Source of the DNA: Lutibacter oceani
GTDB lineage: Bacteria; Bacteroidota; Bacteroidia; Flavobacteriales; Flavobacteriaceae
DNA length: 64,000 nt
Assembly: GCF_003384935.1 (NCBI RefSeq)
Contig: NZ_QTTQ01000010.1
Span: 310,001-374,000 of the forward strand
Reading direction: 5' to 3'
How positions within the stretch are numbered: the first letter of the stretch is position 1; each line of letters opens with the position of its first letter. The translations under genes and the position numbers were made by a program. Under the pieces are notes generated by a model. The model saw only the letters and a program-made list of their open reading frames with translations, made no database searches and had not been told where the DNA came from. This document shows, in pieces, positions 4,481-64,000 of the stretch.

Positions 4481-6436
4481 ATGAAAAAAATTGCTTCACT
4501 ATTTATCCTAATAACAACTATAATAACATCTGCACAAAATAAATCAACTAATAATTTTGGAATAACAAGTAAAGAACTAAATCTCAAAATTTATGAAAAA
4601 GATTCAACTGCAAATGCTCTAGTTTTATTTGAATCAGGAAATTCCGAATTTAAAGAAGATCGTTATAACATCATAATAAGAACTAAATATTATTATAAAA
4701 TAAAAATATTTAATCGTGATGGATATAAAAACGCCTCGTTTTCAATTCCACTTTATAATAATAAAAATAACTTTGATAAAATTAAGGATATAAAGGCAGT
4801 AACTCACAACCTTAAAGAGAATACACCTTTAGAAAAAGATCAAATTTTTGAAGAAAAGGTCAATGAAAACTGGAAGTTAGTAAAATTTACAATGCCAAAT
4901 TTAACAGAGGGTTGTATCATTGAGGTTTCTTATACCATTGAAACTCCATTTAAATTTAATTTAACTGGTTGGGAATTTCAATCTGATATCCCAAAGTTAT
5001 TTAGTCAGTTTAAAGCATCTATTCCTGGGAATTATGTTTATAACAGGCAATTAAAAGGCTATTTAAAATTAAAAACAAATTCTTCAACAATAAAAAAGAA
5101 TTGTTTTAGAGTTACTGGTTTTAGTGGACATTCAGATTGCGAGGAAGTTGTTTATGAAATGGAAAATATTCCCGCTTTTGAGGAAGAAGATTATATGACT
5201 GATACTGATAATTTTTTAGCCAAAATAAAATTTGAATTATCTGAAACCAAGTGGTTTGATGGCAAAGTTTATAAATACACTAAAACTTGGGGGGATGTAG
5301 ATAAAGAATTTAAAAAAGATAAAAACATTGGTACACAAATAAAAAAAGCAAATTATTTTAAAGATAAATTACCTATTGAAATAACTAGTTTACCTTCAGA
5401 AATTGAAAAGGCAAAATCAATTTATTATTTTATACAAAACCACTTTAAATGGAATGAGAAATATAGCATTTTCAAAAATGTAAACGTTAAAAATGCATTT
5501 GAAAAAAAAACAGGTAATGTTGGAGAAATTAACATCTCCCTTATAAACGCTTTAAAATTAGCTAATTTAAATGCTGAGCTTGTAGTGCTTTCAGTGAGGA
5601 ATAATGGTTTTGCAACTAAATTATACCCTGTTATTTCAGATTTTAATTACCTGATAGCAAAAGTGAATATTGATGGTACATATTTTTTACTTGATGCTAC
5701 TGAAAAATTATTGCCCTTCGGTTTATTACCATTTAGGTGTTTAAATGGTTATGGAAGAGTAATGGATTTTGAAAAAGATAGCTATTGGATTGATATAAAA
5801 CCTAATGAAAAAAATATTACTAATCTTACTGCATTGTTAGAATTAAAAGAAGATGGGACAATTATTGGTAAAATAAGAAAATATTATTCCGGCTATAATG
5901 CTTTTTTAAGAAGGGAAAAAAGTTTTTCTCTACAGGAAGATGATTTAATCTCAGAATTCGAAAGTAGTTTTACAGATTTAGAAGTAATTAATTATGAAAT
6001 TATTAATAAAGATGAAAAAGAAAAGCCACTTATTGAAAATTTTGAAGTTAAGATTGAAAATTTAGATAATGTAAATACTATATATTTTAATCCTTTCTTT
6101 GATGAAAAATTTAGTAAAAACCCATTTAAGCAAAAAAACAGGTTATATCCAGTAGATTTTGGCTATCCAAGACAATTTAGCACCAATTTTTCATTAGAAG
6201 TACCTGATAATTTTAATATTGAATCATTCCCTAAAAATAAATCTATTGCTCTAAATGATAATGGTGGAAATTTTAGTTTACTAATTAGAAAAAATCAAAA
6301 TTTTAAAATAACTATGAAAAGTGATTTTAAAATTAAAAAACCTATTTATTTTAATGTAGAATATTACTTATTAAAAGAGTTATTTAATCAGGTAATCAAT
6401 TCGCAAAAAACTCCAATTATATTAAAAAAAATATAG
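4481..6436 (+). CDS. Secreted DUF3857/transglutaminase-like protein, probably not catalytic
   Basis: Exported protein of 651 residues with a signal peptide (residues 1-18, ending ITSAQ). Residues about 55-220 resemble the DUF3857 beta domain, 305-375 a transglutaminase-like core, and the C-terminal 200 residues a DUF3858-like beta domain. In the core, the position where active members have Gly-Asp-Cys reads GNVGE (345-349), so the catalytic cysteine is missing and enzyme activity is unlikely. Many Flavobacteriaceae carry such proteins, probably in the periplasm or at the surface. It follows the exonuclease gene by 13 bases. The substrate or partner is unknown. Confidence 0.8.
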   Translation: MKKIASLFILITTIITSAQNKSTNNFGITSKELNLKIYEKDSTANALVLFESGNSEFKEDRYNIIIRTKYYYKIKIFNRDGYKNASFSIPLYNNKNNFDKIKDIKAVTHNLKENTPLEKDQIFEEKVNENWKLVKFTMPNLTEGCIIEVSYTIETPFKFNLTGWEFQSDIPKLFSQFKASIPGNYVYNRQLKGYLKLKTNSSTIKKNCFRVTGFSGHSDCEEVVYEMENIPAFEEEDYMTDTDNFLAKIKFELSETKWFDGKVYKYTKTWGDVDKEFKKDKNIGTQIKKANYFKDKLPIEITSLPSEIEKAKSIYYFIQNHFKWNEKYSIFKNVNVKNAFEKKTGNVGEINISLINALKLANLNAELVVLSVRNNGFATKLYPVISDFNYLIAKVNIDGTYFLLDATEKLLPFGLLPFRCLNGYGRVMDFEKDSYWIDIKPNEKNITNLTALLELKEDGTIIGKIRKYYSGYNAFLRREKSFSLQEDDLISEFESSFTDLEVINYEIINKDEKEKPLIENFEVKIENLDNVNTIYFNPFFDEKFSKNPFKQKNRLYPVDFGYPRQFSTNFSLEVPDNFNIESFPKNKSIALNDNGGNFSLLIRKNQNFKITMKSDFKIKKPIYFNVEYYLLKELFNQVINSQKTPIILKKI

Positions 6437-6516
6437 AATTTGATATATTAAAAACTAATCCGTTTTTAATTAAAATAAAAGATTTATTTTAGTAAAAAAA
6501 TTTAGTTAAACATAAA

Positions 6517-7338
6517 TTGGAAAAACAAAAAGATAATAGGCATTGGAAAGTAAAACTTCATGAAATTATTTATGAAGCAGATACTCCTAATGGTAAGTTA
6601 TTTGATATTATTTTAATTTTTGCAATTATTGCCAGTATTATTTTGGTAATGTTGGAAAGTGTTGAGAGCTTCGATAAAGAGTATCATAATTTTCTTAATA
6701 TATCTGAATGGATTATAACCATTTTATTTACCATTGAATATTTAGCTCGTATAATTTCTATAAAAAAGCCCAGCACCTATATTTTTAGTTTCTATGGCGT
6801 TATAGATTTATTAGCAACTATCCCAAAATACCTTTCTTTAATATTTGTAGGCACGCATGCACTTATAGCATTGAGAGCACTTCGACTTTTAAGGGTTTTT
6901 AGGATTTTAAAACTAACACGTTATTTAGGCGCTTCTAAAACTTTAGCAGAATCACTAAAAGCCAGTAGAATTAAAATTGCTGTATTTTTATTTGTAGTTG
7001 TATTATTAACTATTATTTTAGGTACAATAATGTATTTAATTGAAGGTCCTAAAAATGGTTTTACAAGTATTCCTTACAGTATGTATTGGGCAATAGTTAC
7101 ACTAACCACAGTTGGTTATGGAGATATTTCACCACATACACCTATGGGACAATTTATTGCCAGCATTGTAATGATTTTGGGTTATGGAATTATTGCCATT
7201 CCAACAGGTATTGTTACTTCTGAAATGGCTAAAACAGATAAAAAAGTTCATACAAATACACAGCACTGTAAAAATTGTGGTGCGGATATGCACCTAGATA
7301 ATGCAGCATACTGCAATAAATGTGGATTAAAACTGTAA
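6517..7338 (+). CDS. Voltage-gated-type potassium channel with a C-terminal zinc ribbon
   Basis: Six-helix cation channel of 273 residues (ion_trans family). S1 is at about 28-46. The S4 voltage-sensor-like helix has spaced arginines at 120-135 (ALRALRLLRVFRILKLTR). The pore loop carries the potassium selectivity filter TVGYGD (198-203), followed by S6. The cytoplasmic tail ends in a small zinc ribbon with paired cysteines C251/C254 and C266/C269, an uncommon addition that may sense or anchor. The start is TTG at 6517. miaA follows after one base, so they are probably co-transcribed. Confidence 0.88.
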   Translation: MEKQKDNRHWKVKLHEIIYEADTPNGKLFDIILIFAIIASIILVMLESVESFDKEYHNFLNISEWIITILFTIEYLARIISIKKPSTYIFSFYGVIDLLATIPKYLSLIFVGTHALIALRALRLLRVFRILKLTRYLGASKTLAESLKASRIKIAVFLFVVVLLTIILGTIMYLIEGPKNGFTSIPYSMYWAIVTLTTVGYGDISPHTPMGQFIASIVMILGYGIIAIPTGIVTSEMAKTDKKVHTNTQHCKNCGADMHLDNAAYCNKCGLKL

Positions 7339-9008: not shown

Positions 9009-9422
9009 TTACAAAAAACTTTCAATTGCTAAATCATAGCTTTTTAAACCAAAACCAGCAATTACACCTTTTGCATTAGGGGCTATATATGAAATATGTC
9101 GAAAATCTTCACGAGAATGCACATTTGAGATATGCACCTCAATTACAGGAGTTTCAATACCTTTTATAGCATCTCCAATTGCTACTGATGTATGTGTATA
9201 AGCACCCGCATTTAAAATTACACCATCAAAATTAAAACCTACTTCATGCAATTTATCAATTATTTCACCTTCAATATTACTTTGAAAATAATGTAAGTCT
9301 ATTGTACTGTACTTTTCTTTTAATGTACTAAAATACGCTTCAAAAGTTAAGCTACCATATATTTCCGGTTCACGTTTACCTAATAAATTTAAGTTTGGAC
9401 CATTTAATATTAATATTTTCAT
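9009..9422 (-). CDS. aroQ: 3-dehydroquinate dehydratase, type II
   Basis: Dehydrates 3-dehydroquinate to 3-dehydroshikimate in the shikimate pathway; dodecameric class II enzyme, 137 residues, normal length. It has NGPNLNLLGKREPEIYG with the catalytic tyrosine (Y22) and arginine (R18), SNIEGEIID, ILNAGAYTHTSVAI with the substrate-binding asparagine, and VEVHISNVHSREDFR with the catalytic histidine. Transcribed alone on the minus strand. Confidence 0.96.
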   Translation of the reverse strand: MKILILNGPNLNLLGKREPEIYGSLTFEAYFSTLKEKYSTIDLHYFQSNIEGEIIDKLHEVGFNFDGVILNAGAYTHTSVAIGDAIKGIETPVIEVHISNVHSREDFRHISYIAPNAKGVIAGFGLKSYDLAIESFL

Positions 9423-9506
9423 AAGTATTTATTCTATAAATAAAGTTGAAGTAAATTCTTCTGGCATCAAATTTAAAAATTATTATCTATTTTAAACGTT
9501 GTTTTA

Positions 9507-10070
9507 TTAATTATCAAATTTATATGCCAAACCTACCTGAATAAAATTTAATTTTTGATTATTATGGTAACCCGTATCAATATAATTGGAAATAGCCAAA
9601 TTGTATCTCGCATCTATTGTAAACTCATCTGAAACCATAAAACCAAAACCAGCACTTACAGCTAAAATAAACTTCTTATAATTTTTATCTTTATTAATGT
9701 CAATTCCTTTTACAGAAAGTAAAAATTGAGATTCTGGACCTCCATAAACCTCAAATTTATCTCCTAATTTATACTTAAATAAAACAGGTATATGTAATAG
9801 CCCTATTTTTTCATCAATTTTATTATTGTTTGATGAGTAATACATTTCTGGTTGAATGGAAAAATTAACATCCTTTCTAAATTCCATAAAAGCTCCTAAA
9901 TAAAACCCTGTTTTACTTACATGTGTAACTCCATCATCATTGAGTTTATCCCTGATATCAACAAAATTAACACCTGCTTTTAAACCAAACTGATTTAAAC
10001 TTTGTGCATTTATAGTATTAAAATTCAAAATGAAGATTACTATTATAAAACTTAAAATATATTTTTTCAT
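9507..10070 (-). CDS. Porin-family outer-membrane beta-barrel protein
   Basis: Small outer-membrane barrel of 187 residues with a signal peptide (MKKYILSFIIVIFILN..INAQ). The mature part shows alternating strands, starting FGLKAGVNF and ending FIQVGLAYKFDN, the C-terminal aromatic closing strand of OmpA/OmpX-like proteins (PF13568 type). I choose the ATG at 10070; a start 39 bases upstream would add 13 residues before the signal peptide. Function unknown. It is separated from aroQ by 84 bases and is divergent from xerD. Confidence 0.8.
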   Translation of the reverse strand: MKKYILSFIIVIFILNFNTINAQSLNQFGLKAGVNFVDIRDKLNDDGVTHVSKTGFYLGAFMEFRKDVNFSIQPEMYYSSNNNKIDEKIGLLHIPVLFKYKLGDKFEVYGGPESQFLLSVKGIDINKDKNYKKFILAVSAGFGFMVSDEFTIDARYNLAISNYIDTGYHNNQKLNFIQVGLAYKFDN

Positions 10071-10257
10071 ATCATTAAAAATTAGTTTAACTAAGATACT
10101 TAATTTCAAATTAATCTCTAATTTTAAATTTATTTAAAGTCAATTTTTTAAATGTTTATATTTACAATATGAAACGAGCATGCTAAAAAGTTTATCTCCA
10201 AATAAAATCAATTTTAGCGAATAGCATCTGACATTTTAAAAATAATAAGAAAGACAC

Positions 10258-11154
10258 ATGAAATGGAATAGTGCATTAACAGATTATATTACTTATTTAA
10301 AAATTGAAAAAGGCTTAGCAAAAAATTCTATTGAAAGTTACAGTAGTGATGTTAAAAAATTAATAAACTATCTTGAAGAAAATCAGATAAAAGTAACACC
10401 AATTTCAGTTGATGAAGATAACATTCAAAACTTTATTTATACTATTTCTAAAACAATAAATGCGCGTTCACAAGCAAGATTAATTTCTGGTCTTCGTAAT
10501 TTTTTTGATTATTTGATTTTTGAAGATTACAGAAAAAACAATCCAACCGATTTAATTGAAACTCCAAAAATTGGTTTAAAATTACCTGATACATTATCTA
10601 TTGAAGACATTGATTTATTAATTAATGCTATTGATTTAAGTGAACCACAAGGTGAACGAAACAGAACCATTATTGAAACATTGTACAGTTGTGGGTTAAG
10701 AGTATCTGAATTGGTTGGCTTACAACTCTCCGATTTGTTTTTTGAAGAAGGATTTATACGAGTTATAGGAAAGGGTAATAAACAGCGGTTTGTTCCAATT
10801 AATACACAAACTCAAAAATACATTGCCAATTACATAAATGATATTAGGGTTCATATAAACGTAAAAAAAGGATTTGAAGATACTGTATTTTTAAACAGAC
10901 GGGGTAAAAATTTAACACGTGTAATGATTTTTACCATTGTAAAAAACTTAGCTATTAAAATAGATTTAAAAAAGAAAATAAGTCCACATACATTTAGACA
11001 TTCTTTTGCTACACATTTATTAGAACGTGGAGCCGATTTAAGAGCTATTCAGCAAATGTTAGGTCATGAAAGTATTACTACAACAGAAATTTATATGCAT
11101 TTGGATAGAAGTTTTCTAAAAGAAGTTGTTAATACTTTTCACCCAAGAAAATAA
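10258..11154 (+). CDS. xerD: Tyrosine recombinase XerC/XerD
   Basis: Site-specific recombinase that resolves chromosome dimers at dif with FtsK. The 298-residue length and the absence of mobile-element context fit the housekeeping Xer protein. The N-terminal SAM-like core domain is residues 1-95 and the catalytic domain is 108-298. The catalytic residues are R148 (CGLRVSEL), K172 (GKGNKQR), H244 and R247 (HTFRHSFATH), H270 (LGHESITTTEIY) and the nucleophile Y279. Many Bacteroidota have a single XerD-like protein. A bidirectional terminator follows. Confidence 0.93.
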   Translation: MKWNSALTDYITYLKIEKGLAKNSIESYSSDVKKLINYLEENQIKVTPISVDEDNIQNFIYTISKTINARSQARLISGLRNFFDYLIFEDYRKNNPTDLIETPKIGLKLPDTLSIEDIDLLINAIDLSEPQGERNRTIIETLYSCGLRVSELVGLQLSDLFFEEGFIRVIGKGNKQRFVPINTQTQKYIANYINDIRVHINVKKGFEDTVFLNRRGKNLTRVMIFTIVKNLAIKIDLKKKISPHTFRHSFATHLLERGADLRAIQQMLGHESITTTEIYMHLDRSFLKEVVNTFHPRK

Positions 11155-11156
11155 AA

Positions 11157-11180
11157 AAAATCTCGCCAAAGCGAGATTTT
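11157..11180. terminator. Bidirectional terminator between xerD and rny
   Basis: Ten-base perfect stem with arms 11157-11166 and 11171-11180 (AAAATCTCGC/GCGAGATTTT) and loop CAAA. An A-run on one side and a T-run on the other let it serve the convergent genes xerD and rny. Confidence 0.85.
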
Positions 11181-11209
11181 TAACATTTAATTTATTTTAA
11201 CAATATATA

Positions 11210-12778
11210 CTATTTGGCGATATTTACAGCTCTTGTTTCTCTAATAACCGTAACTCTAACTTGACCTGGATAGGTCATATCGTTTTGAATTTTTTGTGAT
11301 ATTGTAAAAGAAAGTTCTGCTGCTTTTGCATCATTAACTTTTTCACTTTCAACAATAACACGTAATTCTCTACCCGCTTGAATAGCATAAGCTTTTTGCA
11401 CTCCCGTAAATCCGAATGCAATATCTTCTAAATCTTTTAAACGCTGTATATAGGAATCCAACACCTGACGACGAGCACCTGGTCTTGCACCTGAAATAGC
11501 ATCACAAACTTGTACAATTGGTGCAATTAACGTTTTCATTTCAATTTCATCGTGGTGCGCTCCAATGGCATTACAAATTTCTGGGTTTTCGTTGTATTTT
11601 TCCGCCCATTCCATACCTAACAATGCATGTGGTAATTCACTTTCCGTTTCTGGAACTTTACCAATATCGTGTAACAGACCTGCTCTTTTTGCCAATTTAG
11701 CGTTTAAACCAAGTTCAGCCGCCATTAAACCACATAGGTTTGCAACCTCACGTGAATGCTGTAATAAATTTTGACCATAAGAAGAACGGTATTTCATTCT
11801 ACCAATAGTTTTTATAAGCTCAGGATGTAAACCGTGTATTCCTAAATCTATTACAGTACGTTTTCCAACCTCAATAATTTCTTGTTGTAATTGTTTTTCT
11901 GTTTTCTTTACAATTTCTTCTATACGTGCAGGATGAATTCTACCATCAGTTACTAATTTATGTAATGATAAACGCGCAATTTCTCTTCTAACAGGATCAA
12001 AACAAGATAAAATTATAGCTTCTGGTGTATCATCAACAATAATTTCAACACCTGTTGCAGCTTCAATTGCCCTAATATTACGTCCTTCTCTACCAATAAT
12101 TCTTCCTTTTACATCATCAGATTCTATATTAAAAACAGAAACACAGTTTTCTACCGTTTGTTCTACACCAACACGTTGTATGGTATTTAAAATAACTTTA
12201 CGCGCTTCTTGCTGCGCAGTTAATTTGGCTTCTTCAATAGTATCTTGAATATGAACCATTGCATCAGATTTTGCTTGATCTTTTAGTGATTCTACCAATT
12301 CTTTTTTAGCATCTTCAGCAGATAAACCAGAGATTACTTCAAGATTTTCAACTTGTTTACGATGTAATTTATCAACTTCATCAGTTCTTCTTTCTAAAAA
12401 ATCTACTTTTTTATTGTAGTCATTAATTTTAGTAGATAATTCGTGATTTAATTTTTTATTTTTATCTAGTTCTTGAGATACTTGAGATTCTTTATCTCTA
12501 ATTCGTTTTTCAGTATCGGCAATTTTTTTATCACGCCCAATAATTACTTTTTCATGTTCAGATTTTAGCTCAATAAACTTTTCCTTAGCCTGTAATATTT
12601 TATCTTTTTTAATTGCATCGGCTTCAATTTGTGCTTCTCTAATTAAAGATGAGGCTTCTTTTTTTGTATTTCTTAAAATTTTAGTTGCTTTCTTCTTTTC
12701 AAGTGATTTTGCAATTACATAACCAATTGACAATCCTATTACTATACCAATAATTATTGGCATTATATATTCTACCAT
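11210..12778 (-). CDS. rny: Ribonuclease Y
   Basis: Membrane-anchored endoribonuclease that starts mRNA decay. The 522-residue layout is complete: an N-terminal transmembrane helix (about 5-23), a long Lys/Glu-rich coiled coil to about residue 180, a KH domain with [15 protein letters not shown], and an HD phosphohydrolase domain with HSREVANL and the metal-binding LLHDIGK. It lies downstream of zapA and a structured RNA on the same strand, with the RNA in the gap between them. Confidence 0.96.
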
Positions 12779-55745: not shown

Positions 55746-58259
55746 TTAATATTTTAATCTAAAACTTAAATTAAAAGTTGGTTGTATAGAGTACCTATCA
55801 ATAGGTACAATTTCTTTACTTGCAAAATTATAAGTGAAAAATCTGTGAAGTATATTTTTTGCTTTTAAAATATTTACAAAGGATAATTCAATTTCTGGAA
55901 TTACTTTGCTTTTAAAGTTTTTAAACTCATATCCTAAAGAAATATCCATCCTTTTATAATTTGGTAATGTAAAAGTATTTAACCTATCATATGAAAATCT
56001 ATATGTTGTAGCAGACAATTCAGTTACTTTAGAAGGGTAAGAATAAGGTTTTCCAGTATGCCATTTCCAAGCCAAAGCAATATTTAAATTAGCTATATCT
56101 ACAGAGGTTGAAGCAATTAATTGGTGCTTTATACTCTGATTTCCAGGAAACGACTTTGAATTATTTAATTCTTTAAAAATATTAACTGCATCGGTATATG
56201 TATAACTTAACCAACTTGTAAAAACACCTGTTTTATTTCTTAAAAAAAAATCAAAACCTTCAATTTCGCTTTCACCTTCATGAAAATCTTGATCATTTGG
56301 ATCTAAGAACCCATAATTAAAAGTAGTAATTGACTCTATCCCTTTTTTAAAATATTCAATATCTATTAAAAAACTTTTATTATTAAAAGATACTCCTCCA
56401 TTAAACTGATGAACATTTAATAATGGAAATTGCTCTCCATCTACCCCTACCCATAATTGATTGCCGTTTTCAAATGTATCACTTACGGTTTCATACGTTT
56501 GAAGAGATGCTTGTGTTTTTATTTCAAAAGAAGCATTTACATTAAAATGATTAGCAATTGTTTTTTTAGTATAAATTCTTGGTTCAAATTGAAATGAATT
56601 TAATTGGTCATAATAATTTAACCGAACACCAAAACGAATAAAATAATTTTCAGGTTTCTGTGCTGTAAAATTACTAAATAAAGAATGTGTTCCAATAATA
56701 CTCTTTTGAGAATCTGTTATTGAATAATCATCTTCTTGTCTGGATAAATAATCAAATACTATTTTTTTCTCATTCCATTGATAACCAAGTTGAATTTTTG
56801 CAACTTCAGTTAAAATATTTTCGCGATTAATATTAAAATTAATCTCTTTTATTTTATTATTTCTAGTTTGTAATTGCTCCTCTTCATAATCATCATCTTC
56901 ATACTCACTGAGTCGCTGAAAATAATCCATCTCATATTCTGTATAATTAGCAGTAATTTGAGTGTTATTTTTTTTGGTTTCATTATTCCAAACTATCCCG
57001 CCACTTTTACTACTGGCATATAAGTTTTCATTTAATAAATACTCATCCTCTTCAAAACTGTAATTAAATTTATCTAACATCATTAAACCGTGTATTCGAA
57101 GCGTATTATTTTTATTTAATTTATAATTAACACCTCCACTAAAATCATAATAATAAACATCTTTTTTCAATGTTTTAGATGTTGTAATACTAGAGTTTTT
57201 AAAGGTTTGATTCATTAAATTATTAAAAGGTTGTAACTGTAAAACATCTGTAAAAGACCGTCTAAATGAAAAATCTGTAGTTATTTTACTTCCTATTTTT
57301 AAATTTGAAGAAAAATCTACATCTAATAAATTAATCCCTAAAGATGCATTTGAATTAATACTGTCTATCATTAAGGTTGAAATCTCAATTAAACCACCTG
57401 TATGATTGCCATATTTGGCACTTACTCCGTTGCTAAAAAAGTTTACTTTATTTACAGAGTTTGGGTTTACCGATGAAATACCTCCTAATAAATGCCCTGT
57501 TTGATATAATCGAATACCATTCCACAAAATTAAATTTTGGTCTGGTGTACTTCCATGTACAAATAAATCCGTTGCATTTTCTTGAGAATTGGTAACTCCA
57601 GGTAAAAACTGTATACTTTGAAAAACATCAGCATTAATCAATCCTCCTAAAACTCCTTGATTTTTTGGATTTAAAACAAATGCACCTTCACTATTTTTTG
57701 AAATTCCTTTAGCTAAATATGAAATTTCAACCAGGTCCAATTCAGTTTCTTTAGCTGAAATCTTAATTTCAACATAATTTTTAGTTCCAGAAATTGTAAC
57801 ATTATACTTTCCATAGGCAATATGGCTTATCTGAATATTTTTTGGAACAGTTCTTTTTATAAACTCAAATTTTCCGTTTGCATCTGTAATTGAATTTAAA
57901 TCATTAACAAATACCAAGGCACCTTCAATAGGTAAGTTCGTATTTTTATCAATAATTACGCCACTAAATTTGGTATCAAAATCTTGAATTGCTAAACTAA
58001 GTGCATAAATATTTTTGCCAGTTTTAATAGATGAAATTTGATATGCTTCTTTTAAATCAGCTAAAAAAGTGTCTAATATATCAGGTAATTCTTTGTTATA
58101 AACAGCTAAATGAGTAAGTTCCTCATCATTGTATGAAAAAAAAACTTTATATTTATTTTCAGCATTTTTAAGCGTTTGTTTCAGACTTATTTCAGTTTGA
58201 CTATATAAAATATTGACATTTATTAAGAAAAGAACAATAAAGTAATATTTAATATTCAT
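55746..58259 (-). CDS. TonB-dependent receptor with STN-like and carboxypeptidase-regulatory-like domains
   Basis: Outer-membrane receptor of 837 residues from the ATG at 58259, which overlaps fecR by 11 bases; a start 12 bases earlier is also possible. Signal peptide ends ILYSQ. Residues about 20-95 look like an STN signalling domain (SLKQTLKNAENKYKVFFSY). A CarboxypepD-regulatory-like domain (FSGVIIDKNTNLPIEGALVF) follows, then the plug (SIQFLPGVTNSQ, DLFVHGSTPDQNLILWNGI) and a barrel ending FNLSFRLKY. The STN domain and the fecR/sigma genes before it fit cell-surface signalling. The ligand is unknown. Confidence 0.9.
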   Translation of the reverse strand: MNIKYYFIVLFLINVNILYSQTEISLKQTLKNAENKYKVFFSYNDEELTHLAVYNKELPDILDTFLADLKEAYQISSIKTGKNIYALSLAIQDFDTKFSGVIIDKNTNLPIEGALVFVNDLNSITDANGKFEFIKRTVPKNIQISHIAYGKYNVTISGTKNYVEIKISAKETELDLVEISYLAKGISKNSEGAFVLNPKNQGVLGGLINADVFQSIQFLPGVTNSQENATDLFVHGSTPDQNLILWNGIRLYQTGHLLGGISSVNPNSVNKVNFFSNGVSAKYGNHTGGLIEISTLMIDSINSNASLGINLLDVDFSSNLKIGSKITTDFSFRRSFTDVLQLQPFNNLMNQTFKNSSITTSKTLKKDVYYYDFSGGVNYKLNKNNTLRIHGLMMLDKFNYSFEEDEYLLNENLYASSKSGGIVWNNETKKNNTQITANYTEYEMDYFQRLSEYEDDDYEEEQLQTRNNKIKEINFNINRENILTEVAKIQLGYQWNEKKIVFDYLSRQEDDYSITDSQKSIIGTHSLFSNFTAQKPENYFIRFGVRLNYYDQLNSFQFEPRIYTKKTIANHFNVNASFEIKTQASLQTYETVSDTFENGNQLWVGVDGEQFPLLNVHQFNGGVSFNNKSFLIDIEYFKKGIESITTFNYGFLDPNDQDFHEGESEIEGFDFFLRNKTGVFTSWLSYTYTDAVNIFKELNNSKSFPGNQSIKHQLIASTSVDIANLNIALAWKWHTGKPYSYPSKVTELSATTYRFSYDRLNTFTLPNYKRMDISLGYEFKNFKSKVIPEIELSFVNILKAKNILHRFFTYNFASKEIVPIDRYSIQPTFNLSFRLKY

Positions 58260-59145
58260 TAACAAATTCAATTTGATATTTATTTTTCTGAATTTTTTCA
58301 GCTTTTAAATGAAATGGAGTAAAAACAGTCAACAATGCTTCCTCTAAATTCTCTTTTGAATACCTTCCTGAAAAATACATTTTTTTATTTAATTCCGAAA
58401 AAGAAATTTCAATATCATAAATTGCTTCCAAATCAGCTATTACAACTTCTAGTGGCGTGTGCTGATATGTGGCATATTTCGTCTGAATTTCTTCATTCCA
58501 TTTATATTTAACAGGTTTTATTTCATTTTGTAAATTATCCACTTCTTGAGAAGCTGTAATTATAAATTCATTCTTTTTAATGCCAACTTTTACTTTACCT
58601 TCAAAACAAGCTACTTTAAAAAAGTTTAAGCGATCTAAAACTTTAAAAGTAGTTCCTAAAACAGCAATAGTTCCATTTTTTGTTTCAACATTAAAAGGCG
58701 AACCCTTTGAAACTTTAAATACCATGGCACCTTCAGCTTTTAACTTTCTAAAAAAACGATACGTAAGCTTATTATATTGTATTGATGAATTTGGTTCTAA
58801 ATAAATTTTTGAGCCATCTTGCAAATCTATCGTTTTAAAAGCCGCTATTTCAGTAGTAAATTTTACATTATTGATTTGATAAATACCTAGTCCAAAAACA
58901 ATTAAAATTGATGCCGCTATACCAACCCAAGAATATAATGAAACTTTTTTCTCTTTTTTTACAAATACCATTTTACTAAGTAATTGTTCCCAAGTAGTAT
59001 TCTTTCTTTTTGGAACGCTCCAATTATCTAAAGTTTTTATAATTTTAGAATAGGATAAAAAAGCTTCTTTCCCTACAATTTTTTCTAATTCTTCATCGGT
59101 AATTTTACCTTCCATCCAATCTGCCAAATACTTTTGATCTTTCAT
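58249..59145 (-). CDS. fecR: FecR family anti-sigma factor
   Basis: Inner-membrane anti-sigma protein of 298 residues. The cytoplasmic N-terminus (1-70, ADWMEGKITDEELEKIV) binds the sigma factor, one membrane helix lies at about 72-88 (WVGIAASILIVFGLGIY), and the periplasmic FecR domain has FKTIDLQDGSKIYLEPNSSI, PFNVETKNGTIAVLGTTFKV. The DUF4974-like end (TPLEVVIADLEAIYDIEISF) is typical of Bacteroidota and may contact the receptor's STN domain. 24 bases after the sigma gene, overlapping the receptor gene. Confidence 0.93.
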   Translation of the reverse strand: MKDQKYLADWMEGKITDEELEKIVGKEAFLSYSKIIKTLDNWSVPKRKNTTWEQLLSKMVFVKKEKKVSLYSWVGIAASILIVFGLGIYQINNVKFTTEIAAFKTIDLQDGSKIYLEPNSSIQYNKLTYRFFRKLKAEGAMVFKVSKGSPFNVETKNGTIAVLGTTFKVLDRLNFFKVACFEGKVKVGIKKNEFIITASQEVDNLQNEIKPVKYKWNEEIQTKYATYQHTPLEVVIADLEAIYDIEISFSELNKKMYFSGRYSKENLEEALLTVFTPFHLKAEKIQKNKYQIEFVNEY

Positions 59146-59169
59146 GATTATATTTTTTAGCTTTGGGGT

Positions 59170-59673
59170 TTATCTATTAAATTCTTTAACATTAGTTCTC
59201 AAATAAACCAACGCATTATGCATCCTTTTTTCAATTGTTTTTACTGATAAATTAAGTTCCTCAGCAATTTCTCGATACTTTTTTTTATCAATCCTATTCA
59301 TTAAAAAAACTTGTCTTTCTCCATCTTTTAAATTTGAAATGACTAGTTCCAATTTTTGTTCAAACTCATTTTTTTCCAAATTAAACTCAGGCGATTCTAT
59401 ATTTACATCTGATATTTTTTGCTTCTGAAAAACAATTTTCACCTTTTCATGCTTTTTTATGTTTAAGCATTCATTTCTACCTAAAGTATATAGGTAACTT
59501 TTTATGTTTTCCAAAGAAACCGTTTTACAGCGTTCCCAAAGTTTTAAAAACACATTTTGAGTAACATCTTCCGCTTCAATTTGATTTCCAAATGTGTAAT
59601 ACAAATAATTGTACAAACCATCTGAATACTTTTTATAAACCGTTTCAAATGTTTTATGATTACATAAATTCAT
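59170..59673 (-). CDS. ECF RNA polymerase sigma factor
   Basis: Sigma-70 family protein of 167 residues of the ECF type. Region 2 (FETVYKKYSDGLYNYLYYTF, then AEDVTQNVFLKLWER) and region 4 (DKKKYREIAEELNLSVKTIEKRMHNAL, broken here) are clear; no region 3 or 1. Followed by fecR and a TonB receptor, the classic surface-signalling trio that usually activates its own receptor gene. It is preceded on the same strand by the DUF3570 gene at a 51-base distance. Confidence 0.94.
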   Translation of the reverse strand: MNLCNHKTFETVYKKYSDGLYNYLYYTFGNQIEAEDVTQNVFLKLWERCKTVSLENIKSYLYTLGRNECLNIKKHEKVKIVFQKQKISDVNIESPEFNLEKNEFEQKLELVISNLKDGERQVFLMNRIDKKKYREIAEELNLSVKTIEKRMHNALVYLRTNVKEFNR

Positions 59674-59724: not shown

Positions 59725-61236
59725 TTAATCCATTACAAATTTAAATCCTACATTAACTATTCCAGCTGTTAACCCTGTATTTCTTTTGTAATTACTGTAC
59801 TTTAAATCAATACTTTTTAAGCCTAGTTTCCAAATTCTTCGAGACGTAAAAATATCGGTATATGAGATTCCAAAGCCAAATTGATTAGAATTAAATTCAG
59901 ACAAATCATAATCTGAAGTATAATAATCACTGGTTGATAAATTTTCTTCATAAGGTGCAAAATAATCTGCAGCTGTTTGTGTGTAATATCTATACGTTGG
60001 ATATAAAGTAAAAGTGTCTGAAATTTTTATTGGTAATTCAATATTTGCTGTGTGTGCTGTAATTCCCCAATCATCATAATAATACCTATAATAAGTTCTC
60101 AAAGAAACAGCCTCATTTATATAATAGTTAAAACGTGCACCTACAGGAATTTTAAATCTAGTTGTAGGTAAACGCTCAATATCATCTGCTAATTGAAATA
60201 CATCTGTATTACTTTTTGAAGTATAATTTGGAATACTTGAAGCATTTCCAATAAAATAATTAGCTTTATCTCCAAAATAAACCCGTTGCATAGGATTTGC
60301 TAACCAACCATCTTGTTTTACCAAATCTAAAAAGAGAGAAACTTGAGCTTTTTTACTTAAAATTTGAAAAAAACTCAATGAAACTGAATACGTATTTCTT
60401 GATTTATTGTCAATTAAATTTGTATTAAATGGACTCCAAACTGTTGGTCCATTTTTGTTTATAATTGTTCCGTTTTTATTTAGAATATCTACCCCGGTAA
60501 AAAAACCTGCATTAAGGTTACTGTTTGCCTCTTTATATGCCTTAATTTCTGTTGGATAAACAGGTTGCCAACTATCAAAATATACATTTCCTTTTAAATC
60601 TATTTCTGTATTTTTTTCATTAAAAAGCTTTGTAAAGCTTCCACCAAATCCAAATGACGTATAATCAAATTCATTTGCAAAATTTAAGTGCACCCCAACA
60701 ATACTATTTCTATCAGCTGAGTAATGGCTATAACCAATATCTCCACTTGCCCAAACATCTGATTTTGAAGCTCCGGAAGACTCAACCCAAGGACTTCCAC
60801 CTGAACTATTAGAAATACTATTTCCTAAATTATTAGTATTTACATTTGTTGATGCAGCACTTTTGGCTGAAATAGTTCCTTTGTCATCATCATCATAATC
60901 AAAACGATTTGAAGTGTTTCCACCTCCATCAAACGGATTTACATTACTAGACGAAGCTGATGTGTATGCTGAAATAGTTCCATCAATAGTTAAAACGTCA
61001 TTTGCATTTAAAGGAATTGAAACTGTAATATTTGTTGCTATATCAGTTAATTTTTCAGTTCCAATACCACCAGTAACAGCTGCATTATCACCATCTTGTG
61101 AATAAAAACTTGAAATTAAGTCAACTTCAGCATTTTCTAAAACACGCTTTGTATAGTTTTTGTTTAAATCTTTGCTAGTTTGTGAAAAACCAACAAATGA
61201 AAAAAGAAAAACAACTGGTATTATTATTTTTTTCAT
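59725..61236 (-). CDS. DUF3570 outer-membrane protein
   Basis: Exported protein of 503 residues, signal peptide ending GFSQ (ATG at 61236, chosen because 93 further upstream bases would place non-signal residues before it). The mature N-terminus has DLISSFYSQDGDNAAVTGGIGTE, broken by variable residues, typical of DUF3570. The long C-terminal part has alternating aromatic strands of a beta barrel (YRYYTQTAADYFAPYEENL) and ends in a barrel-closing Phe region (KFVMD). D85-GTIS-A90-YTS resembles the Asp-x-x-Ser-Gly-Ala-Thr context of ApbE flavinylation sites, only loosely. Encoded in one unit with apbE. Confidence 0.85.
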   Translation of the reverse strand: MKKIIIPVVFLFSFVGFSQTSKDLNKNYTKRVLENAEVDLISSFYSQDGDNAAVTGGIGTEKLTDIATNITVSIPLNANDVLTIDGTISAYTSASSSNVNPFDGGGNTSNRFDYDDDDKGTISAKSAASTNVNTNNLGNSISNSSGGSPWVESSGASKSDVWASGDIGYSHYSADRNSIVGVHLNFANEFDYTSFGFGGSFTKLFNEKNTEIDLKGNVYFDSWQPVYPTEIKAYKEANSNLNAGFFTGVDILNKNGTIINKNGPTVWSPFNTNLIDNKSRNTYSVSLSFFQILSKKAQVSLFLDLVKQDGWLANPMQRVYFGDKANYFIGNASSIPNYTSKSNTDVFQLADDIERLPTTRFKIPVGARFNYYINEAVSLRTYYRYYYDDWGITAHTANIELPIKISDTFTLYPTYRYYTQTAADYFAPYEENLSTSDYYTSDYDLSEFNSNQFGFGISYTDIFTSRRIWKLGLKSIDLKYSNYKRNTGLTAGIVNVGFKFVMD

Positions 61237-61246
61237 ATTATTTAAA

Positions 61247-61459
61247 TTAATTACATCCACAACCACCACCTGATTTCCCTCCATTAGCTCCAGAAGCTGC
61301 CTCTCTATAAACTTGAAAGCTAGTTTCAAACTTATACGCTTTTTTTGATGCTAATAACATATCTGGATCATTCAAATAAACTTTTTCATATTCTTTAACT
61401 GCCACACAAGAAGCAGTTAAAGAACTAATTACTAGTAATACACAAATTTTTTTAATCAT
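61247..61459 (-). CDS. DUF4266 small lipoprotein
   Basis: Lipoprotein of 70 residues: signal with lipobox LTASC (Cys18), then VAVKEYEKVYLNDPDMLL, the DUF4266 core, and a glycine-rich tail GANGGKSGGGCGCN with C67 and C69. The paired C-terminal cysteines could hold a metal, form a disulfide or be a modification site. Overlaps apbE by 4 bases and precedes DUF3570 by 10 bases, a linkage that recurs in several bacteria. Confidence 0.88.
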   Translation of the reverse strand: MIKKICVLLVISSLTASCVAVKEYEKVYLNDPDMLLASKKAYKFETSFQVYREAASGANGGKSGGGCGCN

Positions 61460-62448
61460 ATTTTATTAATATTTATATTTTTAGAATTATGGATACCACC
61501 TTTATTATCAATAATTATGCATTCAATATTGTTTAATTGATTTATTCGGTTAAGTCCAACTTCAGTTCCCATAACAAAAATTGAAGTGGCTAAAGCATCT
61601 GCTAATTCAGCTTTAGGTGCAAAAACAGAAACACTAACTATATCACTTGCAGGATAACCAGTTCTGGGATCAATAATATGAGAATAGCGCTTACCATTAA
61701 ATGTTACAAATTTTTCATAATCACCTGAAGTTACAACTGCCTTATTTGAAATTGGTAAAAGAGCAAATGCATTATTCTTATTTAATGGATTAGTAATTGC
61801 TACTTTCCAATCGTTTTCATTGGGTTGTTTTCCCCATGTATTCATATCACCAGAGGCATTAATAATACCAGCCTTAACACCTTTTGAAATTAAAAGCATT
61901 TTTGCTTTATCAGCAGCATACCCTTTTCCAATAGCACCAAACCCAATTTTCATACCTTTTAATTTTAAAAACACTGTTGAATTTTCCTTATCAAGAATTA
62001 TATTTTGAAAGCCAACTTTTAAAACAGATTTTTTTATTTCTTCTTCCGAAGGCATTGTTTTTAAACTACCATCAAATTTCCAAATTTTGTCCATTGAAGC
62101 ATAACTAATATCAAAAGCTCCATCAGTTAATTTTGAAATAGCTAATGATCTTTCAATTAAGTCAAATAATTCTTTATCAACTTTTACAGGTTTAATACCA
62201 GCGTTTTTAATAATTTCTGATGTTTGAGAATTGGTATCCCAAGAAGATATTAGTTTTTCAATTCTTGAAATTTCATTTATGGCTAAATTAATGTACTTAG
62301 TGGCACTAACTGTATCATTAGCAACCACCGAAATATCAAATCGGCTTCCCATTAATTTTAATGTTTTTCTATGTATTTGTTGGCTATAAAAAGAAGTCGT
62401 TAATAAAAGAAAAACAACTAAAAATTTATATTTATTTTTTAAGCGCAT
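61456..62448 (-). CDS. apbE: FAD:protein FMN transferase (ApbE)
   Basis: Exported flavin transferase of 330 residues that attaches FMN to a Ser or Thr of partner proteins in the periplasm. Signal peptide ends SFYSQ. It has MGSRFDISVV, GFGAIGKGYAADKAKMLL, NASGDMNTWG and YSHIIDPRTGYP, the FAD- and Mg-binding motifs. No RnfG, NqrC or FMN-binding-domain target is in the window, so the DUF4266 or DUF3570 neighbours or the unseen gene at 63994 are candidate targets. 2 bases after the thioredoxin-like gene. Confidence 0.94.
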   Translation of the reverse strand: MRLKNKYKFLVVFLLLTTSFYSQQIHRKTLKLMGSRFDISVVANDTVSATKYINLAINEISRIEKLISSWDTNSQTSEIIKNAGIKPVKVDKELFDLIERSLAISKLTDGAFDISYASMDKIWKFDGSLKTMPSEEEIKKSVLKVGFQNIILDKENSTVFLKLKGMKIGFGAIGKGYAADKAKMLLISKGVKAGIINASGDMNTWGKQPNENDWKVAITNPLNKNNAFALLPISNKAVVTSGDYEKFVTFNGKRYSHIIDPRTGYPASDIVSVSVFAPKAELADALATSIFVMGTEVGLNRINQLNNIECIIIDNKGGIHNSKNININKI

Positions 62449-62450
62449 CT

Positions 62451-62882
62451 TTAAAATGAAATGAGTATTTTTATATATTCAGAAGGTGTTGTTTTTTTGT
62501 AACCAGTATTTCCTAAAACCTCCCCTTTTTTATTTAAAACAACAACATAAGGAAAATAACCAGGTTTATTATATTTTTCCATAAGTCTCTTATTTTGTAT
62601 TTGTTGTTTCTCCGTTAATCTATTTTTACTTTTTCTAGGAAAGTCTGCTTTAAACATTATAAAATGTTGCTTAGAATATTTTATGAATTCAGGAGTACTC
62701 CAAATTTCTCTATCTAATTTTATACAAGGCGCACACCAATCGGAACCTTGAAATACCAAAATAATATTTTTATTTTCTTTAAGTGCTAAATTTTTGGCAT
62801 CATCAAAATTTGTATTCCAATTTTGAGAATACATTGTGTAACTTCCAATAAAAAGAAAAAGGATTGCTATTTTTAAATTCAT
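62451..62882 (-). CDS. Periplasmic thioredoxin-family protein
   Basis: Exported thioredoxin-like protein of 143 residues, signal peptide ending TMYSQ. It has the redox pair C50-AP-C53 in QGSDWCAPCIKLDREIW and the cis-Pro region GYFPYVVVLN. First gene of thioredoxin-apbE-DUF4266-DUF3570; it probably reduces or reshuffles cysteines of the neighbours, such as the DUF4266 tail. Direction of electron flow is not known. Confidence 0.9.
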   Translation of the reverse strand: MNLKIAILFLFIGSYTMYSQNWNTNFDDAKNLALKENKNIILVFQGSDWCAPCIKLDREIWSTPEFIKYSKQHFIMFKADFPRKSKNRLTEKQQIQNKRLMEKYNKPGYFPYVVVLNKKGEVLGNTGYKKTTPSEYIKILISF

Positions 62883-63163
62883 ATAAATATGTTATAAGTA
62901 TTTCGTTTTACTTTAAAACAATTTAATAATGAGATACCCTAAGAAATTAATATCTTTTTCTCAAAAAAATCTTAAAAACTATATTAGAGCTAAATCATTT
63001 CATAAAACATTATTTTAATAATAATTCAATAAAAAGTTAAACATAAAAAAATTGAGTTTGAAGTAGGGTAAATTAAAAATCACTTGTTATAATTAATACA
63101 ACAAATGTTTATTTATAAATCAATTGTTAATATTTACTAACCCCTAATCCTCCTTTATTTAAG
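62883..63163. promoter_or_regulatory. Divergent intergenic region of the thioredoxin/ApbE operon and the cytochrome b gene
   Basis: A 281-base AT-rich gap without genes between divergent operons. It holds an imperfect 21-base palindrome (63084-63104, TTGTT...AACAA ends). TAGGGTA occurs twice in opposite orientation (63064-63070 and, as TACCCTA, 62935-62941). No exact TAnnTTTG box with proper spacing was found, so the promoters may use another sigma factor. Confidence 0.4.
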
Positions 63164-63994
63164 TTGAAAACTTTAACACATACTATTTATATTGCAATTA
63201 TGTCTTTAATAGTTATCGTTGTTACTATATACCTCTCATATGTAGGTTACAGCTATTACAATACTCCCTTAGAAGAACGATTTTATCATCCTAATCATAA
63301 TTGGTTTAAATCAAGTGGTCTCTTTGGACAAGGTATTGGTATTATAGGAACCTTTATGATTACTTTTGGTGTAGCAATTTATATTGCAAGAAAAAGGTAT
63401 CATTTTTTAGCAAAATATATTCGCTTAAAATACCTTTTAGAATTTCATATTTTTTTATGCACTTTAGGACCCATTTTAATTCTTTTTCATACGACTTTTA
63501 AATTTAACGGTATAGTATCAATTGCTTTTTGGAGTATGGTAGCTGTAGTATTGAGTGGTGTTGTTGGAAGATTTATTTATATACAAATACCTCGATCTAT
63601 TGAAGGTAGGGAACTAAGTTTAAGTGAAGTTCATAATATGAAAACGGATTTAACTTTAGTTTTAAACGAAAAATTTGAATTAGACAACAATGTAATAAAT
63701 ATGATTGTAAGTGCTACGGATGCTAACCAAAACTTATCTGAATCCAAAATTTCAATACGAAATTTAAGAAAAATTTTGAAATCAAAAAGAATTCCTAAGC
63801 CTGAAAGAAATTCTATTATAAAAATGGTTGTAAAGGAAAAAATTCTTTCAGGTAGAATTGCCAGATTACAAACTATGCAAAGGCTTTTTAAATATTGGCA
63901 TGTAGCACATTTGCCCTTTGCTCTTATTATGCTCATTATTTTAATTATTCATATTGGTGTAACAGTTGCCTTTGGATATAAATGGATATTTTAA
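63164..63994 (+). CDS. Membrane cytochrome b-like protein with four conserved-type histidines
   Basis: Integral membrane protein of 276 residues with about five helices (near 10-28, 57-75, 90-110, 118-140 and 247-270). H95 and H109 lie 14 residues apart in one helix, and H249 and H263 lie 14 apart in another, the ligand pattern of two-heme cytochrome b and ferric-reductase-like proteins. A polar cytoplasmic or periplasmic segment of about 100 residues separates the helix groups. The start is TTG at 63164. Overlaps the next gene by one base. Likely carries electrons across the membrane; partners unknown. Confidence 0.78.
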   Translation: MKTLTHTIYIAIMSLIVIVVTIYLSYVGYSYYNTPLEERFYHPNHNWFKSSGLFGQGIGIIGTFMITFGVAIYIARKRYHFLAKYIRLKYLLEFHIFLCTLGPILILFHTTFKFNGIVSIAFWSMVAVVLSGVVGRFIYIQIPRSIEGRELSLSEVHNMKTDLTLVLNEKFELDNNVINMIVSATDANQNLSESKISIRNLRKILKSKRIPKPERNSIIKMVVKEKILSGRIARLQTMQRLFKYWHVAHLPFALIMLIILIIHIGVTVAFGYKWIF

Positions 63995-64000
63995 TGAAAG
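63994..64000 (+). CDS. Start of a gene running out of the window
   Basis: An ATG at 63994 overlaps the cytochrome b stop (TAATG). The pattern is used repeatedly in this genome for coupled genes. Only two codons are visible, so its product cannot be named. Confidence 0.5.

Follow-up and report, generated by a model that had tools for sequence, protein, structure and literature searches.

The stretch of DNA studied here, hereafter the window, comprises 64,000 nucleotides of Lutibacter oceani (contig NZ_QTTQ01000010.1, positions 310,001 to 374,000), and in its last part two sets of redox genes stand divergently. The minus strand carries a four-gene flavinylation unit, formed by a secreted thioredoxin-like protein, an ApbE flavin transferase, a small DUF4266 lipoprotein-like protein and a DUF3570 protein, and the plus strand carries the gene of a di-heme cytochrome b-like protein (cytb). 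The original prediction made from this DNA had given the unit these strands and spacers of 2, −4 and 10 bases, which open reading frames and Pfam matches confirm when DUF3570 is started at the ATG at 61236, preferred here to the upstream TTG at 61329 of the open reading frame list. It had also expected cytb to be coupled to a further gene. Extension of the contig past 64000 revealed this partner, a flavoprotein with iron–sulfur (Fe-S), FAD and NAD(P) motifs that starts within the 3′ end of cytb, at window-equivalent position 63982; the interval 59725–64000 therefore cuts the second operon, which continues for approximately 11 kb past the window end with two giant multiheme cytochromes c (mhc1 and mhc2), a predicted outer-membrane barrel, a lipoprotein and a CcsBA fusion (Table 1). 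We read the locus, with a probability of about 60%, as two neighbouring units for electron transfer in the envelope that evolve separately, of which the plus-strand one would be a trans-envelope conduit that moves electrons outward from NAD(P)H and resembles PCC3, the porin–cytochrome c complex of Proteobacteria described by He et al. in 2017 (PMC5566968).

Table 1. Features of the two units; positions beyond 64000 are window-equivalent, with coordinates in locus L003 in parentheses.
Feature	Position	Strand	Basis
DUF3570 protein, ApbE substrate family, SGAS motif	59725-61236	-	Pfam 1e-37; putative ATG start
DUF4266 lipoprotein-like protein, 70 aa, C-terminal GGGCGCN (CXC)	61247-61459	-	Pfam 5.2e-19
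ApbE FAD:protein FMN transferase, 330 aa	61456-62448	-	Pfam 1.2e-83
Thioredoxin-like secreted protein, Thioredoxin_7, CxxC, 143 aa	62451-62882	-	Pfam 2.3e-12
Divergent intergenic region, 281 bases, 18% G+C	62883-63163		Base composition
Di-heme cytochrome b-like inner-membrane protein (cytb), 276 aa, TTG start	63164-63994	+	Open reading frame; five predicted transmembrane helices
Membrane-anchored oxidoreductase, two Fe-S/FAD/NAD(P), 450 aa	63982-65334 (5983-7335)	+	
mhc1, 23-heme cytochrome c (23 CxxCH), 614 aa	65338-67182		
mhc2, 31-heme cytochrome c, triheme repeats, 774 aa	67161-69485 (9162-11486)		
Outer-membrane barrel, 542 aa	69495-71123		Predicted structure
GW/OB-like lipoprotein, 271 aa	71126-71941		GW match just below cut-off
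CcsBA fusion, 1041 aa	71981-75106		

The genes of the conduit are kept together in many other genomes. A scan over GTDB contigs gave 142 confirmed relatives, the best 80 of which were retained as named loci, and samples of 149 genomes from the family and 395 from the phylum were used besides. Downstream genes were counted at loci with at least 500 bases (flavoprotein), 3.5 kb (mhc1) or 6.5 kb (mhc2) available, and the barrel at loci where mhc2 is complete and a further 2.5 kb follows, the presence of the lipoprotein being taken from the locus gene listing. All counts exclude proteins truncated at contig ends, multiheme proteins with fewer than ten hemes, the short paralogue loci L153-L155 and a cytb fragment with six stops in G048. 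On this basis, the flavoprotein follows cytb in 77 of 78 named loci, with mhc1 in 63/64 and mhc2 in 44/45, and a barrel comes after mhc2 in 36 of 37, the miss being a locus (L117) in which a second mhc2 reaches the locus end. Within the family, eight of the 149 genomes have a cytb match, the eighth being the G048 fragment, and the order cytb–flavoprotein–mhc1–mhc2–barrel–lipoprotein is found in all seven full-length members (the window organism, G000, in L003 and six relatives, one of them truncated within the lipoprotein). In the phylum sample, 61 of the 395 genomes give any cytb match and 40 a strong one. Some distant families have the flavoprotein gene at the opposite end of the operon (for instance L139/L140, L147 and L151), and an Emticicia plasmid, pEMTOL02, carries the whole set with CcsA (L157, L162). 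The gene order of the conduit is kept across dozens of Bacteroidota loci, mostly with no ApbE nearby.

In cytb, the residues H95, H109, H249 and H263, which the original prediction had proposed as heme b-like ligands, are invariant in all 59 rows of an alignment in which the window protein is joined by 58 of 79 untruncated sequences from the named loci. Moreover, two HX13H motifs and an SGxxG motif are present in 93/93 homologues. The predicted model has five helices, with H95/H109 on helix 3, SGxxG (131-135) on helix 4 and H249/H263 on helix 5. The longer motif WX3HX13H occurs twice in only 16 of the 93; the window protein has it on the fifth transmembrane helix (TM5) alone, with L91 in place of the tryptophan on TM3. 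No Pfam family was over cut-off for this protein. Ferric reductase (PF01794) was considered as an assignment and rejected, as the window protein did not reach the cut-off and a short relative of 201 residues (L154) gave 3.3e-4, also below cut-off.

The flavoprotein has 91 homologues for comparison, in which the FAD motif is found in 89, the NAD(P) motif in 85 and an N-terminal hydrophobic anchor in 88. Its second Fe-S motif reads CxxHxxCxxxCP, with histidine for the second cysteine, in 91/91, and the equivalent place of the first motif holds serine in 81 and cysteine in eight, so that the cluster ligation predicted from these motifs appears unusual. Histidine at that place of a ferredoxin motif is known from [3Fe-4S] ferredoxins. 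A thioredoxin reductase or YpdA function was rejected, since a CxxC past residue 150 is found in only one of the 91 homologues and the YpdA match, even if its E-value is 2.1e-47, scores 161.5 bits against an NCBIfam cut-off of 339.9.

Both multiheme proteins are over cut-off for Pfam Cytochrome_C7 (90 bits for mhc1 and 110 for mhc2) and also for the Pfam model of MtrC/MtrF domain II/IV (34.1 and 66 bits, cut-off 30), the latter possibly through common heme motifs; the NCBIfam DmsE and OmcA/MtrC models are far below cut-off for them. Hemes were counted in a pool formed by the 80 named loci together with L003, L023, L025, L139-L152, L156 and L157, which includes one 10-heme short paralogue, from L156. 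The median number of residues per heme is 26.6 in mhc1 (n = 80) and 25.3 in mhc2 (n = 70), and every sequence counted has at least one non-motif histidine per heme, so all hemes could be bis-histidine ligated, which would be wire-like rather than enzyme-like. The heme number of mhc2 ranges from 10 to 73 across relatives, with a median of 22, and takes the form 3n+1 in 68/70, a tally that is inflated by relatedness and nonetheless covers many different lengths. In one exception, with 42 hemes (L059), a single CVTCN replaces a heme site, and counting it restores the rule; the other, with 12 hemes (L085), is a separate upstream gene. The spacing at the head of mhc2 is nearly constant (36 or 37/16/16/34/19/25 in five of seven examples) and then come cassettes of about 71 residues that hold three hemes each. 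The 3n+1 counts mean that the length of mhc2 varies in steps of whole triheme cassettes. As DNA repeats within the mhc2 of the window organism match at 84-93%, these repeats and the heme counts together make length polymorphism likely.

The 542-residue protein had no Pfam or NCBIfam match. Its predicted structure (score of the predicted local distance difference test, pLDDT, 82) is a barrel with 22 strands, by manual count of DSSP strands, plus a small N-terminal beta domain, and it aligns structurally with outer-membrane porins, ushers and TonB receptors. A second CcsBA-sized match in the host genome stands on another contig, which suggests that the CcsBA of the operon is dedicated to the conduit.

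By its described features, PCC3 is among the known systems closest to the conduit (PMC5566968). The two share an inner-membrane protein (about 300 residues in PCC3, 276 here) with five helices, two HX13H motifs and SGxxG on TM4, a giant multiheme cytochrome of periplasmic type (median of 21 hemes in PCC3, 23 or 20 here), a larger cytochrome of variable length (median 34 in PCC3, with a lower median here), about 26 residues per heme, repeats and a barrel gene. The differences are also clear. The Bacteroidota conduit adds the NAD(P)H/FAD/Fe-S flavoprotein, of which the passages compared on PCC3 make no mention; a GW/OB-like lipoprotein and CcsBA accompany the operon in Bacteroidia loci; the barrel is predicted with 22 strands, in comparison with up to 42 predicted transmembrane regions in PCC3 porins; PCC3 has WX3HX13H on both TM3 and TM5; and its reported hosts are Proteobacteria. 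Since the TM3 tryptophan is missing in the window protein and homology was compared by description, not by sequence, we class the conduit as PCC3-like and not as a PCC3 member. The PCC4 of the same paper, and the porin-less pairs of inner-membrane protein and multiheme cytochrome described there, have the same helix and histidine plan in the inner-membrane protein. In subgroup II of PCC4 this protein is preceded by an upstream Fe-S gene, and most porin-less pairs are accompanied by another redox gene; however, PCC4 is described with no extracellular giant cytochrome, and its Fe-S gene is of pfam13247 instead of an FAD/NAD(P) flavoprotein. In Gallionellaceae, PCC3 cytochromes of the periplasm are reported with 21, 24 or 27 motifs and their extracellular counterparts with 10-35 (PMC10734462). 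A seven-gene cluster for extracellular electron transfer in a Bacteroidetes metagenome-assembled genome from a bioanode, which matches only hypothetical proteins, shares the phylum, multiheme cytochromes, a barrel and, according to a figure legend, a b-type cytochrome, but six multiheme genes are reported for it and the comparison is by description only (PMC8258643). In Ignavibacteria, OmbB- and MtrB-like complexes have been reported (PMC7399161), and the parts available of a survey of multiheme cytochrome clusters (PMC11475568) do not describe this conduit. Complexes of the MtrCAB/MtoAB and OmcB types are alike in that a porin and multiheme cytochromes pass electrons across the outer membrane, and they differ in the low DmsE and OmcA/MtrC scores and in a barrel for which MtrB is not among the matches listed. 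The decaheme subunits of MtrCAB/MtoAB-type complexes are far smaller than the cytochromes of the conduit.

On these grounds, we propose that electrons would enter from NAD(P)H at the membrane-anchored flavoprotein, by way of its FAD and two Fe-S clusters, that the two hemes b of the five-helix cytochrome b would then lead them across the inner membrane, and that the 23-heme mhc1 would bridge the periplasm. From there, the barrel of 22 strands and the cytochrome with triheme repeats might take the electrons across the outer membrane, or farther out, to an acceptor outside the cell, with the CcsBA of the operon assisting heme attachment. The proteins would thus be distributed from the inner membrane to the cell surface and could form a complex. 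Several points weigh against this proposal. Many conduit hosts are, to judge by their names, presumably aerobes, for which outward electron transfer is no expected need. For the cytb model, the best structural match by Foldseek, to cytochrome b561, has an E-value of 2.6 and is not significant, and the NADPH-like motif YR-x-D-x-F-x-R is unrecognisable in 20 of the 91 flavoproteins. Among the NCBIfam matches listed for mhc2 there is no type IX sorting domain, and no sorting signal places it outside the cell. An MtrB-type structure is not among the 50 matches listed in either barrel structure search, which excludes nothing. Furthermore, in Sideroxydans ES-1 both PCC3 clusters are down-regulated on Fe(II) (PMC8788666), and the predicted extracellular PCC3 cytochrome Slit_1448 is 0 in all eight proteome columns (PMC12016527), so that even the related PCC3, described as functionally unverified (PMC12442390), has no proven role.

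The conduit could also work inward, with Fe(II) outside the cell, another cell or a cathode as the donor and quinone or, uphill, NAD(P)+ as the acceptor. He et al. modelled PCC3 electrons inward to quinone and proposed the complex for Fe(II) oxidation, its hosts including Fe(II) and Mn(II) oxidisers (PMC5566968); the Mto/Mtr wires are described as reversible (PMC10734462), and cytb could react with quinone. We consider this unlikely in view of the NAD(P)/FAD flavoprotein conserved in the operon and of the fall of the ES-1 clusters on Fe(II) mentioned above.

Another alternative, compatible with either direction of the conduit, is a joint route in which cytb, alone or via the conduit, feeds flavinylated DUF3570 at the outer membrane. 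The adjacency seen in the window recurs in four of the 67 loci whose sequence reaches 2 kb or more upstream of cytb, where ApbE-unit genes lie within 2 kb (L083, L090, L115 and L135), and the layout is divergent in the window, L083 and L135 and co-directional in L090 and L115. Within 4 kb, the frequency among the other loci is 4/58 (P of about 1e-5 under random independent placement), or 5/59 with P of 3e-7 when the window, which prompted the test, is included. In the genus of the window, DUF4266 is found in all five genomes with a long cytb match versus 12 of the 33 others (17/38 overall; Fisher p = 0.012). The genes are linked in two of these five (G000 and G557) and DUF4266 is on other contigs in G555 and G540, the cytb match of the latter being cut by a contig end; in G545, cytb starts 226 bases from a contig end and linkage is not judgeable. 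One of the two DUF4266 copies of G557 stands beside the conduit, in a thioredoxin–DUF4266–DUF3570 unit with no apbE (L135, 7653-9816, which matches G557 by coordinates), the other being elsewhere. However, most conduits stand alone, and all five adjacent cases fall in one 24-row clade, so common descent explains much and they are not five independent events. Co-occurrence of DUF4266 with cytb is not significant in the family (5/7 versus 51/142, p = 0.10) and is below expectation in the phylum (6/40 versus 107/355, odds 0.41, p = 0.044), a figure swayed by a single family, f18, to which 62 of the 113 belong. In two genomes of the phylum sample (G201 and G393), a DUF4266/DUF3570-like pair lies 9-12 kb from cytb. 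The linkage is above chance, confined to one clade and not general. The original prediction had looked to synteny across relatives for a link between cytb and ApbE, but it is the flavoprotein that accompanies cytb, and the ApbE unit is unlinked in most relatives. Since the flavoprotein, the two giant cytochromes and the barrel are its constant partners, cytb is not a dedicated partner of the ApbE unit. Of the inner-to-outer-membrane route first proposed, the part concerning the cytb operon survives as its best reading, whereas cytb feeding a flavinylated protein as a general rule does not. We think a joint route quite improbable and any crosstalk between the units hypothetical. The ApbE unit is better regarded as a second redox route of the envelope, independent of the conduit and sometimes its neighbour.

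The least probable alternative is that the conduit exports no electrons and serves a periplasmic or surface reductase (for an oxyanion, peroxide or an Fe(III)-chelate for uptake) or charge storage, for which speak the FecI/FecR/TonB-receptor-like genes near it in the window, L093, L103 and L135 and the lack of a listed export signal for mhc2 in the NCBIfam scan, but the conserved operon has no catalytic subunit, its histidines suffice for all-bis-histidine hemes and the barrel is conserved together with the cytochromes.

Outward transfer from NAD(P)H thus remains our preferred reading. In Bacteroidota, the flavoprotein that accompanies the PCC3-like genes points to a candidate electron source and a candidate direction, so that their role becomes testable, and cultured hosts exist in Arenibacter, Maribacter, Aequorivita, Yeosuana and Emticicia. 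If outward transfer were confirmed, extracellular electron transfer would have to be reckoned with in organisms commonly regarded as aerobes. Besides, proteins whose heme counts follow 3n+1 form a natural series of lengths on which the conduction of protein heme wires could be measured. A broader picture, which we consider doubtful, is that of a Bacteroidota-wide trans-envelope wire driven directly by NAD(P)H of the cytoplasm and not by quinol, with an outer section whose length is tuned as triheme cassettes are gained and lost (3n+1, up to 73 hemes), occurring in flavobacteria usually taken for aerobes, and in one clade having a second electron outlet in a flavinylated protein of the outer membrane.

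Regarding the minus-strand unit, its job had been regarded as undescribed in the original prediction, and this needs correction in part, as the DUF3570 protein of Chlorobium luteolum was demonstrated to be flavinylated by its own ApbE at two [ST]GA[ST] sites (PMC8238504). The set of Thioredoxin_7, ApbE, DUF4266 and DUF3570 is listed in the same paper with or without DsbD, 316 clusters having no linked DsbD. The window unit thus belongs to this published kind of flavinylation cluster, which it resembles in all four genes, in the [ST]GA[ST] motif of DUF3570 and in the CXC tail of DUF4266, retained in the five relatives compared. It differs in having one such motif, in the context W-x2-SSGAS-x-SD-x-W, in comparison with two in C. 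luteolum, and in adjoining a multiheme conduit. A profile search of the host genome found no DsbD linked to the unit: two DsbD_TM matches over cut-off are both on contig C1, away from it, and a weak third, below cut-off, is at G000:C2:329763. Membership stands, unlinked clusters being counted in the published survey. By analogy, ApbE would attach FMN to DUF3570 at the SGAS site, and the thioredoxin-like protein and the CXC lipoprotein might act as thiol carriers for the unit. A motif of [ST]GA[ST] type is present in 17 of 18 DUF3570-like rows, the exception being L018, in a set where two genes were entered twice (L013/L028 and L015/L029); the motifs of L139 and L142 are out of alignment with the window SGAS. 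The host genome has a second ApbE gene unlinked to the unit. Directly 3′ of DUF3570, at 55746-59673, stand the FecI/FecR/TonB-receptor-like genes of the window.

Relatives of cytb are also found in other settings. A short cousin of about 190-200 residues adjoins a cytochrome c with 10-14 hemes in L153-L156, resembling the porin-less pairs described in PMC5566968, and occurs as well in families f18 and f35 and in other genomes of the window's genus. On plasmids of Methylophaga, Qipengyuania, Alteromonas and Acetobacter (L158-L161), a related cytochrome b has the gene of a 2Fe-2S protein on one side and a cytochrome c gene or a hypothetical one on the other, with hydrogenase or metal-resistance genes in the vicinity. 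On the Emticicia plasmid, the conduit stands divergently to the genes of a sigma factor, two barrels, a Rieske protein, YceI and a cytochrome c.

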